Source of the DNA: Neelides folsomi
Taxonomy: Eukaryota > Arthropoda > Collembola > Neelipleona > Neelidae
DNA length: 64,000 nucleotides
Assembly: GCA_034687125.1 (NCBI GenBank)
Contig: JAQGBZ010000246.1
Coordinates: forward strand, 1 to 64,000
Direction: 5' to 3'
Position numbers and translations under genes: made by a program. How positions within the stretch are numbered: the first letter of the stretch is position 1; every line of letters starts with the position of its first letter. This document shows positions 3,499 to 50,000 of the stretch, one piece after another. The notes beneath the pieces were generated by a model. It saw only the letters and a list, made by a program, of their open reading frames with translations, was not told where the DNA came from and did no database searches.

Positions 3499-6400
3499 TC
3501 ATTTCAGATCCTCTTTGATTTGGAGATTGAAAGTATATGGGTCGTAGAATCCAGCGTTGTAGTACACGTCTTTCTCCTTCCTCCGATTCTTCCCCACTGA
3601 GATCTCGCCAAAACGACCCTTGAACTCCTCAAATGGGAGAACTTCACATTTACGTGCAATTGTTTGCACATCATTCTCATCAATATGTGGAGACTCGAAT
3701 AAAGCACCCTAGAATTAAAAGTTCATTAAAAATAAATTCTTATATTTGATATAAACAATAACAATACATGCAAATAAAGTTAATTGTGAGAAATAATTGA
3801 ATTTTATAAATTACTGAATATTTGAGTGAAAGAGCCTTCTTCCGAGACTTGACTTCTTCCGGATGATAGAACCAACGCACATTCACCACCTTTTGCCCTT
3901 TCTTTTCCCAAAATCTCTCAACTCGACCTAAGCACAAGTTAGTTTTTAAACTTTCAGTAGCTCAGCACAAACATTACGCAATGGAGAATTTAACTATTAT
4001 TATAAAATGGGATTTAAATTTATTTTAAAAATGTTGGACACTTCAAATGAATAAACAAAGTAAAATAATTCAGTTTCAATGAATAAGTCGAATTCATTTA
4101 GCACAAGCTACCAGATTGATAAATCATTGAGTAAAGTATCATTCGCTAATCGTGCTCAATAAATGAGAAGAAAATAAATTAATTTACTCACCAATAAAAG
4201 GGCGTTCATTCCCATTAGAAATGAAGAGAGCTGCATCTCCCACATTGATAACTTCATCGCCCCGTTGGATTCCTCGGAAGAATTCCTTATTTCGGTTTTT
4301 CTTGGTCTTTGGGCGCTTGTATCCGAGGCCGTTCCATGTCCAATACAGAACTTTATTTCCTTTCTTCACTTTGAATGGAAACTTGTCTTCTTCATCATCC
4401 TCATCAGATTTAAGTTCAGAATCTGCCCCTTCGCTCCAACCATTTTGACTTCCAGCGGCTGATGAATGTCGCCGTTTACGATGTTTCTTCTCAAGAGTTA
4501 AAAGTGGATTTGGATCGTACGCTGAAATAAAACACGATAAATGTTAATTATCATACTTATGTTAACAATCAGTAGTTTAATATAGTTTCAATTTTATATC
4601 AAAGAAACTTATCATTCAATAAAATTTAACATAACATGTCAATGATATCAGTCTCGATTAATTTATTACCTCGAATAGGATGATTCTGTGAGAGGAGTCG
4701 AATTTCATCCGTTTTAATAAAACCGGTGTCTCCATCATCAAACTCAATTGGAACAAGGTCAGAATTTGGCTGGGCAGAGTCCAGAGAAATTCTCCCAGGA
4801 TAAAGGCCACTGTATTGAGGTGACCAATACGCACAGATTCGTAGACCATTCTCCAATTCGATTGGTTTTACCTCCCGTATACATTTCTACAAAATAATTA
4901 TAAAATTAAATACAATTTCATTTAACAATCTCGCTTTGAAATATTAGCACATACTTAAAATTAAAAGAGAAACTATTTAAAAATAAGTGAATGTATGAAT
5001 AGACCCATAAATTGAAGGAAATGCCTCAAATTTTGTAAAGGGTCATAAACAAATTGAATTTCGCAAAGGCTACCAGATTGACCAAACATTGAGTGAATGG
5101 ACATTCGCTAAATCTCTGCGGTCAAATAATCAAAACTAAACTATTCTACCTAATTAACTTGAATATATCTGTAATTTGCTATTAATTTGCTATTAAAATT
5201 AACCCAATAGATAAATTGCATTAAATTCTAAATTATTTCCTACCTCAAGAACTTCTTCAGCCGAAAAGATAATATGCGGGGGCGCTCCTCTCTCATTATC
5301 CAAGGTGACTCCATAAACATCCGGTGGTTGGAGAGCATTGAGCTTCCCGGTGTAAAACAGTCCTTGGATGTCCGTCAAAATCCTCATTTCTCCCTCAAGG
5401 TCTTCCACCGTATGGAGCACAACTTCCCTCACCTCCTCCTTTCGCTCTTCTTTCCTCAGGAGATCAAAGTCGTCTGATAAGTAATCGTCTTCCTGGTCCA
5501 TTGTCACTCTCATGATTGGTTCGGCCTTCAAAGTCGGCCTCATATGTCTTCCTTCCCCACTAGCCCTTCGACTCGAATCGGCTCTTTTCCTCCTAACCGT
5601 TTCCCCACTTGCTCTTCGACTCACTTTACTTTGGGCCTTTTTCTTTGGAGCGAAATGAGAGAAGGATTTGGAACTCATGGAGCTTTTAGAAGACGACGCA
5701 CTGCTTCGTCTAGCTCCGGAGATCTTGGCTGGTTTCTTCACAGGTTTTCTATGACCTTCCCCATTAAGCGGGGATTCAACAGGGGTCAATGGTCGCACAT
5801 TTTGATGATCCTTCGAAGGAGAAAAATCCGGTGGTTTGCAAATGGCCCGAACTGCATAAGTTGGATTCGCAGTCCATTCATTTTCTTCTTTTTTCACTTG
5901 AGCTGCAGCTGCTGCTTTCTTCTCGTTTATCTTATTCAGAGTTTTGAGACAGGTGAGGGCGGCTGGAACAGGTCCGAAATTAAATCCCTGTGGGAGAAAT
6001 AAACCTCCTTTATTTTCTCGTTTCAAATGATCTTTCCCATCTTCACATCCTTTTTCCTTCCCAATGTTCCCAATGTCTTTCCCATCCTTTTCCATCTTGG
6101 GAATCAGGGGAGAATCATTTTGTTTCCCTTCATGTTTTTCAGGATTAATTTTGATTTCTTCTTTCAAAAGCTGTGAAGGATCTTTTAGAAGTTGGAGATT
6201 TTTAAGTTGCTTCACTTCCTTCAAATATTTTTCCTTCATTTGGAAACTTCGTCTCATCTTAGATTTAAAATCCTCGTCGGCTTCTCGCTTCGAATACGGC
6301 ACATGTTGAGAATACTTTAATTCCTTTTTTGAATACTTCTGATCTGAAGGCCCAGGTGCCTTCAAATTCCCCTTGTACGAGAGCTGGTCAATACTTTTAT

Positions 6401-30914: not shown

Positions 30915-32298
30915 TTAGAGAGTTTTATTGAATACAGAACGAGCAAAAGTTTGAGCCACGACGATAGGGAATACAAGAGTTGCATCTGCATAGACTTTGA
31001 CTGGAGCTGCATCCTTTTTAATTTTGCCCCAAGAGACAGCTTCATCCGGTCGAGCTCCTGAATCGCTCCCATCAAATTCTTGACCTGTGTTTATAAAGAC
31101 GGCGTATTCGCTTCCGTTCCTCTGCATAAAACATAATAATACCATTATACAATCATACTATTCAATTAATCGTAAGTCAAATGAAGTAAATGATATATGA
31201 AATTATTGTGTATTGAGTGTTGGTGGTATTGGTTAATTGGTTGAATGAAGCTGTAGTTAATAAACGAAATAAGTAATTATGCGACATACCATTAAATTCG
31301 CATTGCAAACATGATGTTTAATGAGTCCGCCCCCAAGGATCACAACTCCCGTTTTCTTTGCTCTCATCGCCATGCAATTCAATGCTTTGAGATCTCCTAA
31401 TATGTCAAGAACAAGTCCTGGTTTCTTGAAGGAATGGAAAAACATCACATCCCCTAAAGATCCATCCGTAAGGGCAGGACTGTAAACCGGAATATTATTC
31501 TTTGCAGCCCAGTAATAAATTGAGTCCTCATTCCCTATCTTTTCCCCGAGCATTTTGATCATTTTTGATGGGGTCCAAACCTAGAAACGAAAAGAGATGG
31601 TTAAACAACTCAATTACTTTTCCTGTTATGATCAACCTCTTTAGTGGACTCTTGGATTGTGATCATTTCATCAAGTATGGGGCTCATCCAATCTTCAAAT
31701 TTACAATAGTTGTCATTCGGCACGAGCAGATTCCCTATCCTATTAATTCCTTTGTCTCTCAGCAGTTTGCCAGGTAGATGAAAGTCTCCCAATAAAGTGT
31801 CGCTGAGACATTTAATAAAATCCTCTTCAACCCCTCCTGCTGTCGTCACGAGGCAATCAACGAGATTCTCTTTCACGAGAAACTTAATCGATTCTCTCAA
31901 CCCGCTTGAGACGAGGTTAGAAGTGTAAGCAAGGAATATGGTACAGCCCCGAACTGATTCACCGCTAACTTCATCAAATATCTTTTCCTCTCGGGCTTTT
32001 ATCTATTAAACGTTATAATTGCATTTTAATTAAAAATCGATATTTGGATTCATACTGGTGTGAATGAACATCCTTGTGATTTGGCATTTGAATGAAACTT
32101 AACCATTCGATTTATTTCATCCACTGCTAGCCCAAAGTTCGTAGCTTGAAATCCCGTTCTCTTGTATGAATTGAGGATGGCTTCATAATCAATACCTTTT
32201 GACCAGTCATAACCTTTAACTTTTTCTTCGTAACCTTCAAGCTTTTCGCTTTTGAGCAGCACGGCTTCTTCTGCAACTTTCTTGGACTCCATCTCCAT
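30915..32298 (-). CDS. DHPS: Deoxyhypusine synthase, 368 aa
   Basis: Four exons on the minus strand: 32056-32298, 31637-32002, 31290-31580 and 30915-31121. All junctions are in phase 0 and the product is 368 residues, as in human (369). The enzyme transfers the aminobutyl group of spermidine to one lysine of eIF5A, using NAD, in the cytosol. Seen: [10 protein letters not shown] near residue 28, the NAD-fold blocks [17 protein letters not shown] and [10 protein letters not shown], the central [20 protein letters not shown] and [22 protein letters not shown], and the active-site block [20 protein letters not shown] with the lysine that forms the covalent intermediate. The donor of exon 2 is GTTGAT, off consensus but required by the conserved join STKEVWTPSKM. 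The ATG pair at the start (MEME) leaves a two-residue choice. Confidence 0.96.
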
Positions 32299-32839: not shown

Positions 32840-33629
32840 ATGTCGTCGCATTTGAATTGGCTAATTGTTCGAAACAACAATGCCTTCATCAAGAAGGCCC
32901 GCAACATTAAGCAGCCCTTCAGTGTGGAGCCTAACAACTTGAAGAATGTCAGCTCCTACCGCTACAGTGGACTTGTCCAAAGAAAAACTGTCGGCATTGA
33001 AGCTGCTCCGGATAAGAAGGGATTCGTTCTCGTCACACGGAAGACCAAGGGACAGGTAAATGGATCTTTCATTCTTACATCATTGCTATTATTCCTTTTA
33101 TGATGATCATTACCACCAAGATCGCATATGAACCCTGACGACAACATTTGCTAATCTGATGAAGTATTTTAAAATCAGCATCTTTTTCTAAGAGACCATT
33201 GTTCATTTTTATAACGTGTTGATTGAATTTACAGAGGAAGCCTTCACAAATGTTCAGTAAGACAACAATGAAGGCCGCTGGACCCCGAAGGCCCCTCAAT
33301 AAGTTGAAGAAGACACTTATGAAGAACAAATACAGGAAGGACCTTACGAAGGTATTTAAATTCATATTTTTAATCATGAATATCAACATATTGATAAAGT
33401 TCCTTTTCTCTTATGATGACTCTTACCACCAAGATCGCAGATGAGCTCTGACGACAATATTTGCTAATCTGATGAAATATTTTCATAATTACAATTATTT
33501 GAAAGTATGGTTTTGTTCGTATGCATTAATTTTTTGTTTCTTTTTAAGGCGGCGTTGGTGAGAGCATCCGTAATTCTCCGATCCCAACGACAGCCCAAGA
33601 AGAAGTCGAAAGGAAAGAAGGCAGAATAA
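32840..33629 (+). CDS. RPL28: Large-subunit ribosomal protein L28 (eL28), 137 aa
   Basis: Three coding exons, 32840-33055, 33235-33351 and 33549-33629, plus a non-coding first exon. The product is 137 residues, the same length as human RPL28. Seen: [78 protein letters not shown] and a lysine-rich end GKKAE. The ATG lies one base after the splice acceptor. The protein is a structural component of the cytosolic 60S ribosome. Introns 2 and 3 each host a U24-type C/D snoRNA, so the host transcript couples ribosomal protein synthesis with rRNA modification. Confidence 0.97.
33095..33165 (+). ncRNA. SNORD24: Box C/D snoRNA U24 (SNORD24), copy 1, in RPL28 intron 2
   Basis: C box TGATGA at 33101-33106 and D box CTGA at 33156-33159, with CTTT/GAAG able to pair outside them. 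The first guide, TACCACCAAGATCG (33111-33124), is followed by a degenerate D' (CATA) and then a C'-like TGACGA. The second guide, CATTTGCTAA, ends just before the D box. Both guides are the U24 guides, complementary to the conserved large-subunit rRNA stretch GATCTTGGTGGTAGTAGCAAAT. From memory, in human U24 the ATTTGCTA guide comes first and the CCACCAAGATC guide second; here they are swapped. Confidence 0.88.
33408..33478 (+). ncRNA. SNORD24: Box C/D snoRNA U24 (SNORD24), copy 2, in RPL28 intron 3
   Basis: C box TGATGA at 33414-33419 and D box CTGA at 33469-33472, with TTTC/GAAA as the closing stem. First guide TTACCACCAAGATCG with D' CAGA; C'-like TGACGA; second guide CAATATTTGCTAA before D. 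This copy keeps a better D' and a longer second guide than copy 1. The two share the whole core CTTATGATGA...CTAATCTGATGAA, so they are duplicates. Confidence 0.9.
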
Positions 33630-47000: not shown

Positions 47001-50000
47001 TCTATGAGGAGAACAATTGTGTTTGCACTTTTTACTACTCTTCCTTCAAATGCTCTCTACAAATAAGGATATGATTCACTTTAATTCCATTCTTTACCTC
47101 TTCATGAAGAGGGCCAAAGGGTTGGCAACTTATTTACTTTCAACTTCTCCAAATTTGGGGTTCATTTGAGATTCTCGTCATTTTAATCTAATCAATTTAC
47201 AATATTAAACCAATTTACAAATTAAATGTAATGGCAAATATCTTATTAAAACTTTATGCGCTCGTAATCCAAGAAAGTTTTATACATTAATAATCTTTGT
47301 TAATTCTGTAGGTAATTCTAAAACTGACATTGACGGATAAAATGCAATTTACAGTGTAAGGTATATTAAACAAATTAAGAAAGTGGGTTTACAACTTTGT
47401 GATAATATATTATGGTCTCATTAAGAATGTAGGTTTGGGAGTAGGATGAAATTAGGATGGAACCACCCTAATTGTAACCAAATATTTAGATAATCCTGGA
47501 GAATGGTGGGGGCTTATCGGGTCGGTAGGGATTTCCTTTTTGACACGCGGCCGACGTGTGCCGTCTTTTCCGCTCTTTTCAACCCTTTCATTCCCCGCCT
47601 ACCTCAAGCTCATGAAACAAATCTCTGCAATTTTATCCTCCTTGAATTCTCTAGTTCTTGACAAAGATGGATCAAAGCCTAATATTTTATGTAAACATTT
47701 ATCAAAGTTGACGAAGCCATTTGCCAGAGTCGTTTAGTCAAATGCCATCTTTATTTCAAAAAAAAAATTCAGAAATGGAAATTTTAAAACTTCAAACAAG
47801 ATGATTTGATTATTTAGTTTGCATCGAGAATAGGTACTCGCATTCAGTATTTTATCCTTTATAAATATTTATCTTCATCGTTCTTCAGTCATTCTGTTAA
47901 GCAAATCCCAATATCATCGAAATCCTTTTCTCTTTAGAAAATTATAAAAAGTAGAATGTATAAAACAACTAACAATTGTACCGAATGTTACAAATAATAT
48001 TATGTCATATTACTTCATCATCAATAGATCTGTAAATGGTTTTGAAGAGGAAAATGTGTTGAGAGTCGCTTTGAATTAAAATCTCATCTCGTCCTCATTG
48101 AAATTGATTTCTACCTGAGAGCTCGCGTCTGTTCTCTTTTGTCCTCTCCTCTTTAAGCCCTACTCATGTACTGAACAATTGGTGTTGAAAGAGGGGGAAT
48201 ACCATAATAGGAACAGGTGTCGAGTTTTTAAAGGCAGAGATCTTTATCCGATTCTTTTCATTCATATCCCTTTTTCCGTGTTCGCTCAATGATGACAATG
48301 ATGAGCTAATGGAGCACCCGGAAGAAAATTACTCAAAACAAGTCATTCTTTATCAGACTATTTAATTCTAATTCCCCCCTTTGGTGGTTCGTCAATGCCC
48401 GATCTCTCTCATTAATTGATTCTCATTAATCCATCCATATAAATATATTATGATGCCCAAATGGGTTTCTCGTTCCAACTACTGTATAAAAAACCATAAT
48501 AAAATTAATCAACGTAGAGAATGGTATACCTCTGTTCCAACTCCCTCTTATCTCTTAATCTAATAATCTAAATGAGATTTCTACTGGTTATTACATGGGA
48601 TTATCAATACCTTATGTTCCTTTTTATGAAGGTATTTATTTAATTTTAATCTTTAATTACTGGGATCAGTCAACAGCACAATCATATTGTACATTATATT
48701 TTTTGTACCTCATTTGAGTACAGAATTTGGCATTATCCATAAAATCCTTAAATCATACTACTAAAAGTAAAATATCAGTAAAATATTTACAAATACAAAA
48801 TCTAAACAATACATATTGTATACTAAATCTATACCATACTTACAATTAATCTAAATCATTGGATATTTATTCTATAAGTCAATTAAATACCCATTTAAGT
48901 ATACATGCATCAAAATGTAAAGAAAGGTTTCATTTGTTCTTCTACTCCGAACTTGTGTCTATGAGTCAGTCTGAGAATTGAGAAGAAAGTGAAGGAACTA
49001 TAGCCTCATGAAGTTTGGATATTTCTTGAGATTTGATTGTGATAGGGTGAAGTTTTGGGAGGAAGGGGACGGAAGAATGTAGATATGTATTCCGATGTTC
49101 GTGTGAATGGGGGAGGGAGGGAGTTCGGGTCGATTTCTCCCGGTTCCCCGCTGTTTCTAATCAAGGAGATTGAAGTGGGTGGAACTCCGACGGCCGACGC
49201 CCGCCACGAACTCCCTCCCTTTCTCCTTCCTTTCCTACAATCACTCCGACAAATTAAGGGACCCTGTCACCTACCTAACACTCACATTAACCATTTCAAG
49301 GCTCTCTATTCAACCTAGTTTTTATAAAGAGATAACGTGGGTTAGATTTTAAAGATCCAAGAATTCCAATTAATTTATTTAATGAATAAATAACGCTGGT
49401 AAATATAAATTTCATGTCATTCTGTATGCATGTAAGCTTTAAGCAATTCTTGCTTAATACGTGTGACATGAACTTGACAAAATATTTTTAGATTACCTTT
49501 GTTTTTATAAACATTTGACGGTTGAATTTGAAGAAATATTGCCAGACGATAAAATAATAAATCATATTTTGCATTTATTCAATTGACTCGTGGGTTGTTT
49601 GTAAACTGTCGCAATTTTAAGTCAATTTTAAGTTCATTTTTTAAAAATAATTTTACAATCAAAATAAAATTCATTTGTCAAAACAGAAACCTCTTGACAT
49701 TCATCGTTTATCATAACTGAATTCAAACTTACACAGCCTATACCCACTTCTTTTGTTTGAAAGTACAAATAAGGATATTTAAGTTATGATTATGGTGAAT
49801 ATAGAAAATTATTGTTCTTTACAATATTTGATTTGTCTTGAACTAAACACGTGTAACCTCTTTCTGGTTAAAAAAATAAAAACCCAAATATCAGGAAACG
49901 AACAATTTTTTAAAAAAATCAAATAAATATTACAAAAAATCATATTAGAACATTTATCAAACGGTTGATTCAAAATAAAACAAACATTTTTATTAAGGGC

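Follow-up and report, generated by a model that had tools for sequence, protein, structure and literature searches.

The window analysed here is a 64,000-nucleotide stretch of the genome of Neelides folsomi (Collembola). Its forward strand carries a gene for the ribosomal protein RPL28 (eL28), whose joined exons match the Pfam family Ribosomal_L28e (E 1.4e-33). Among 42 matched PDB sequences, the best two for the encoded protein were 4v6w and 6xu6, which we take to be Drosophila ribosomes. Upstream of RPL28 and on the opposite strand, an open frame at 31610-32002 (- strand) resembles deoxyhypusine synthase by eye. A sequence-only reading of this DNA had placed a box C/D RNA in each of two consecutive RPL28 introns, and the boxes, their spacing and the Ribosomal_L28e match bear this out. 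Splice sites and exon joins were read from the sequence, and the boxes and spacing by eye and by alignment of the two copies. The features are as follows.

33056..33234, + strand: RPL28 intron with copy 1, GT...AG, 179 nt
33096..33164, + strand: copy 1, U24-like box C/D RNA, mature ends guessed, C to D at 33100-33159
33100..33106, + strand: copy 1 box C, ATGATGA
33113..33123, + strand: copy 1 guide 1, CCACCAAGATC, upstream of D'
33125..33128, + strand: copy 1 D' box, CATA, degenerate, spaced from the guide as box D (CUGA) is in the Rfam consensus
33135..33141, + strand: copy 1 C' box, CTGACGA, degenerate, the same in copy 2
33146..33153, + strand: copy 1 guide 2, ATTTGCTA, upstream of D, doubtful
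33156..33159, + strand: copy 1 box D, CTGA
33352..33548, + strand: next RPL28 intron, with copy 2, GT...AG, 197 nt
33409..33477, + strand: copy 2, U24-like box C/D RNA, mature ends guessed, C to D at 33413-33472
33413..33419, + strand: copy 2 box C, ATGATGA
33426..33436, + strand: copy 2 guide 1, CCACCAAGATC, upstream of D'
33438..33441, + strand: copy 2 D' box, CAGA
33448..33454, + strand: copy 2 C' box, CTGACGA
33459..33466, + strand: copy 2 guide 2, ATTTGCTA, upstream of D
33469..33472, + strand: copy 2 box D, CTGA

Both RNAs share the layout C - CCACCAAGATCG - D' - C' - ATTTGCTAAT - D. Copy 1 reads ATGATGA (C) - TCATTA - CCACCAAGATCG - CATA (D') - TGAACC - CTGACGA (C') - CAAC - ATTTGCTAAT - CTGA (D), and copy 2 follows the same plan with CAGA as its D' box. 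In each copy, a C box of the RUGAUGA type lies near the 5' end, a D box of the CUGA type lies near the 3' end, and antisense elements stand just upstream of D' and D. The D' and C' boxes are degenerate in both copies when compared by eye. From C to D each RNA measures 60 nt, shorter than the 70 nt that had been claimed for it.

For intronic C/D RNAs in mammals the favoured distance between the D box and the 3' splice site is 70-80 nt. This distance is 75 nt in copy 1 and 76 nt in copy 2; in three other C/D candidates of this genome, two in a ROCK gene and one in EXOSC10 (described below), it is 73, 72 and 69 nt. The introns of all five RNAs are 168-197 nt long, the intron donor and the D box of one ROCK RNA ("ROCK a") being our own reading. 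The terminal stems are less uniform. As good a stem arose in 118 of 300 shuffles of copy 1, which is at chance level, and in 8 of 300 shuffles of copy 2, which places this stem above most shuffles; those of the three ROCK and EXOSC10 RNAs (266, 155 and 202 of 300) do not rise above their shuffles. The weak stem of copy 1 would fit non-expressed relics of a snoRNA family. We regard this explanation as very improbable, because the guide cores and boxes C, C' and D are invariant between two otherwise diverged copies, and because both RNAs sit near the mammalian optimum distance.

The two guide words are those of U24 (SNORD24, RF00069) and face the same stretch of large-subunit (LSU) rRNA, although for guide 2 of copy 1 this pairing is doubtful; their order is opposite to that of U24. 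The Rfam SNORD24 consensus runs AUUUGCU, then GUGAUGA, then ACCACCAAGAUCgCUGA, so that ATTTGCTA belongs at D' and CCACCAAGATC at D, the reverse of what both RPL28 copies carry. Human U24 has the canonical order and is likewise opposite to the RPL28 RNAs. Published work agrees: in chicken U24 the 3' element, at box D, serves the first C site and the 5' element, at D', the second (PMC2653536), and in yeast U24 the D guide directs C1437 and the D' guide A1449 and G1450, sites that have their counterparts in Arabidopsis (PMC8053127). A further canonical-order U24 was found among GTDB contigs (L062, JAIYDP010000141.1, 6158-6224), with a SNORD24 score of 41.1 bits against a cut-off of 41. The reversal proposed by the sequence-only reading thus holds against the Rfam consensus, chicken, yeast and Arabidopsis U24, and this contig. 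The contig is titled as part of a Verrucomicrobiaceae bin, which suggests that its U24 is eukaryotic contamination of that bin.

A search of the GTDB contigs, in which eukaryotes occur only as contamination, gave no match to the reversed pattern with boxes. A somewhat looser canonical-order pattern gave three matches (L060, L061 and L062); L062 alone was run against Rfam, and by eye L060 and L061 lack a CTGA after the guide. In viral contigs the reversed order occurred only as chance matches. No report of a reversed U24 appeared among the literature matches listed, and a printed one may still exist; neither U24 nor U76 occurs in the available main text of a Drosophila S2 preprint (PMC13228274), and the available parts of PMC8522698, PMC2656528, PMC6461891, PMC2246290 and PMC5122169 hold nothing on guide order.

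An Rfam scan of the whole window returned no match above cut-off, and a scan of 33000-33560 with E values up to 10 returned 12 matches, all under their cut-offs, of which the top two were SNORD24. The copies scored 23.9 bits (copy 1) and 23.6 bits (copy 2), below the gathering cut-off of 41. In these alignments ATGATGA takes the place of C', which would allow the canonical order to be kept if each RNA began about 30 nt upstream with a ATTTGCTA-like D' guide and ended just after CCACCAAGATCG; a candidate word, ATTGCTAT, does lie upstream in copy 1. We rejected this arrangement as extremely unlikely. The scores are under the cut-off, and the same lax search found matches in 11 of 14 control genomes, none above cut-off; the upstream word is absent from copy 2, and the D box would have to be CATA or CAGA. 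Moreover, the stretch shared by the copies continues through the second guide and CTGA. We therefore describe the RPL28 RNAs as of the C/D type, which should work like U24, and do not file them under Rfam SNORD24, because both guide order and score were compared with that family and neither agrees.

The halves of the RNAs were also exchanged by script. Alignment scores against the SNORD24 consensus then rose from 38 to 50 for copy 1 and from 39 to 59 for copy 2, and against L062 from 30 to 42 and from 28 to 52, where the best of 500 shuffles reached 31, 24, 24 and 22; the gain mainly restates the guide order, with the boxes and spacers contributing little.

We analysed the predicted targets with a stand-in for the 28S rRNA of this species. 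Patterns for the 28S target (up to 2 mismatches), the alpha-sarcin loop and 18S rRNA (up to 1 mismatch) each gave no match in the assembly, from which rDNA seems to have been left out. The target stretch was therefore taken from an LSU rRNA fragment of another eukaryote (L063, 324.6 bits), in which this stretch agrees with the Rfam LSU consensus. The fragment itself (IMGVR_UViG_3300029277_000005, 4115-4503) occupies one end of a contig catalogued as viral. A 28S primer called universal, aligned with krill sequence, covers the same stretch (PMC2517594).

Guide 1 forms 15 contiguous pairs in copy 1 and 14 in copy 2, one of them G-U in each case, and places D'+5 on the equivalent of C2338, the U24 site, in both copies and from the D' side; none of 300 shuffles reached the duplex energy of either copy against the LSU fragment. 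Guide 2 forms 8 contiguous pairs in copy 1 and 11 in copy 2 (AATATTTGCTA), with D+5 on the equivalent of G2351 and D+6 on that of C2352. Its duplex energy was reached by 70 of 300 shuffles for copy 1, which makes that guide doubtful, and by 5 of 300 for copy 2. The claim that each copy carries both U24 antisense elements accordingly stands for guide 1 in both copies and for guide 2 in copy 2, and falters at the 8 pairs of copy 1. The sites named with it were C2338 and its neighbours near C2352: guide 1 does point to C2338, whereas guide 2 points to G2351 by the D+5 rule and to C2352 only at D+6. As a control, the same script applied to L062 assigned C2338 to the D guide and either A2350 or G2351 to the D' guide, according to the D' box chosen. 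The D+5 rule is not absolute, since in a test construct the methylation guided by the C'/D' side of yeast U24 fell on position 6 (PMC5389607). Sources also disagree on the second vertebrate U24 site, which is given as C2352 (PMC3412847), with its equivalent in chicken (PMC2653536), and as Gm2351 in a table of PMC8817022.

The 8 pairs of copy 1 raise the question of whether the RPL28 RNAs are effectively single-guide RNAs, in which CCACCAAGATC alone is functional and ATTTGCTA would be a U24 remnant in decay. The nearest parallel is in Neurospora, where the counterparts of U24 and U24b are CD50 and CD51: CD50 guides the C site, solely from D', as CCACCAAGATC is placed here, whereas, unlike the RPL28 RNAs, both are single-guide and the second site is served by the separate CD51 (PMC2780460). 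The A2350 site, moreover, has other candidate guides in the N. folsomi genome (see below). On the other hand, ATTTGCTAATCTGATGAA is identical in both copies, and the 11 pairs of guide 2 in copy 2 exceed all but a few shuffles. On balance we consider the single-guide explanation unlikely.

Next, we asked how often such an arrangement occurs in the 75.1-Mb assembly (840 contigs), with expected counts calculated from the base composition of the window. The reversed guide pair was found by pattern search at two places, which are the two RPL28 copies, against an expectation of 0.003, and the full C-guide-guide-D arrangement is expected about 1e-6 times and observed twice. The C box followed by CCACCAAGATC also occurs at two places, both of them RPL28 copies (0.47 expected). 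The exact canonical-order pair has no match in the assembly, a pattern search that a diverged copy could escape. A DNA query with copy 2 returned only the two copies, and CCACCAAGATCNCTGA with up to one mismatch occurs at five places, one being copy 2 and the other four lying outside any C/D context by eye. Single words carry less information: ATTTGCTA alone is uninformative, with 6 occurrences in the window against 4.13 expected. In viral contigs, used as a control, 23 canonical-order and 23 reversed-order word matches were found, none of either with C and D boxes. Chance could produce the single guide words; for the full arrangement we rejected it on the expectation and the viral-contig controls. 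An RF00069 search of the assembly at a lax threshold gave six places, none above cut-off. Two are the RPL28 RNAs, one (L008) carries an A2350 guide, and three (L003, L004 and L007) show none of the guide words within the 120 bases inspected at each place.

The two copies, 313 bp apart, are 87% identical over bases 1-79 of an 81-base query. Neither guide core differs between them, nor does box C, C' or D; the differences include one base of D' and one C/T change just before ATTTGCTA. Local alignment of the two introns yields 80 columns, around the RNA only, so the snoRNA is the visibly duplicated unit. A tandem duplication of the whole intron, as the sequence-only reading had it, is unsupported by this alignment.

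The weak SNORD24 match in L008 led to two further C/D-like RNAs, located in consecutive introns of a gene whose best PDB match is Rho-associated protein kinase 2 (ROCK). A third lies in an intron of EXOSC10 (Rrp6).

L008 765-824 and 1506-1560 (G000:C10, about 198928-199724): two ROCK C/D-like RNAs, U76-like, with the D' guide on the A2350 equivalent
L066 1500-1559 (G000:C329, about 48007-48066): EXOSC10 intron RNA, a copy of one ROCK RNA

In the ROCK RNAs, ATTTGCTACT stands upstream of a TTGA D' box; its contiguous pairs number 13 and 11, and D'+5 falls on the equivalent of A2350. This is the placement of U76 (SNORD76), the vertebrate guide for A2350, and chicken U76 likewise holds the guide for the equivalent site at D' (PMC2653536). 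The ROCK and EXOSC10 RNAs differ from U76 in their hosts, and no Rfam match in L008 exceeds its cut-off; we call them U76-like by target only. The second guides of the ROCK RNAs gave no convincing match in a 100-nt LSU piece. The A2350-guide pattern occurs at three places in the assembly, the two ROCK RNAs and the EXOSC10 RNA, with 0.41 expected by composition. The EXOSC10 RNA is identical to one ROCK RNA over 61 nt, and a lenient local alignment extends over 105 columns (87%), which leaves little likeness in the flanks. From these comparisons the EXOSC10 copy is apparently a recently moved snoRNA.

These RNAs bear on how unusual the history of the RPL28 pair is. The new host gene and the duplication had been counted among its unusual features. 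Both are, however, ordinary: U24 is hosted by RPL5 in sponges and by RPL7A in human (PMC3412847), host locations of snoRNAs drift (PMC3511168), chicken U38 isoforms occupy introns 4 and 5 of RPS8 (PMC2653536), and this same genome holds another C/D pair in consecutive introns (ROCK) and a moved copy (EXOSC10). We therefore attribute the host change and the adjacent-intron duplication to ordinary snoRNA mobility, and the reversal of the guides is the unusual part. An exchange between D' and D is unusual in view of the argument that the eukaryotic particle has two non-equivalent sides: Nop58 is assigned to C/D and Nop56 to C'/D', and when C' or D' was lost, methylation upstream of D' was the only one affected (PMC5389607, PMC8413462).

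Taken together, the RPL28 RNAs are probably two paralogous intronic snoRNAs, of the C/D methylation-guide type, that fill the role of U24 but carry its two guides in swapped places. They share with U24 the two guide words, the LSU stretch and the C/D boxes; they differ in guide order, in the register of the second guide on G2351, in the RPL28 host, in their presence as two copies in consecutive introns, and in scoring under the Rfam cut-off. We infer that they are expressed, assembled and active in methylation: after splicing, trimming would release them from the RPL28 introns, and they would bind the core C/D proteins and direct fibrillarin. From its place upstream of D', the CCACCAAGATC guide would direct 2'-O-methylation of the LSU C2338 equivalent (yeast C1437), and the ATTTGCTA guide upstream of D that of the G2351 equivalent (yeast G1450), a role that is credible for copy 2 and doubtful for copy 1, while the A2350 equivalent would be served separately by the U76-like RNAs in the ROCK and EXOSC10 introns.

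As for its origin, a permutation or recombination of the halves of a U24-type RNA, followed by duplication into the next intron, appears likely. A tandem U24 dimer may have lost its flanks, leaving permuted halves, or single-guide halves may have recombined. A fuller version is tentative, and we would put it a little below an even chance: two ancient methylation sites would have swapped catalytic positions in the snoRNP, with C2338 now served from the C'/D' side and the second region, re-registered to G2351, from the C/D side, while A2350 passed to the U76-like RNAs and the modifications were kept.

How old the exchange is bears on its reading. The reversed order may be an old form of the clade, common among arthropods or other invertebrates and simply not represented in the Rfam model. 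The 13% divergence already present between the copies fits such an age, as does the affinity of the host eL28 to PDB chains that are presumably from Drosophila. Nothing direct speaks against it; the failure to find the reversed order in GTDB contigs has little weight, given that eukaryotes are there only as contaminants. We hold this possible, with the balance leaning against it, and it is compatible with two paralogous RNAs doing U24's work in exchanged positions. Whether the reversal is species-specific or arthropod-wide decides much of the finding's interest. If real, an order-swapped U24 would offer a natural test of whether an rRNA site depends on the side of the snoRNP that serves it. 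It would also indicate that two guides found together from yeast to vertebrates may come apart, shift register and change order with their predicted targets kept, and the RPL28 RNAs would represent a type of homologue that order-dependent models such as Rfam's miss.

The predicted guides in this genome would together cover the equivalents of C1437, A1449 and G1450, all methylated in yeast and Arabidopsis (PMC8053127), the RPL28 RNAs taking C and G and the ROCK and EXOSC10 RNAs taking A. A comparable division of the triplet among different guide RNAs is found in Dictyostelium, where the grouping differs: CD19 is listed for C and A together and CD16 for G apart (PMC8817022), whereas here C and G go together and A stands apart.
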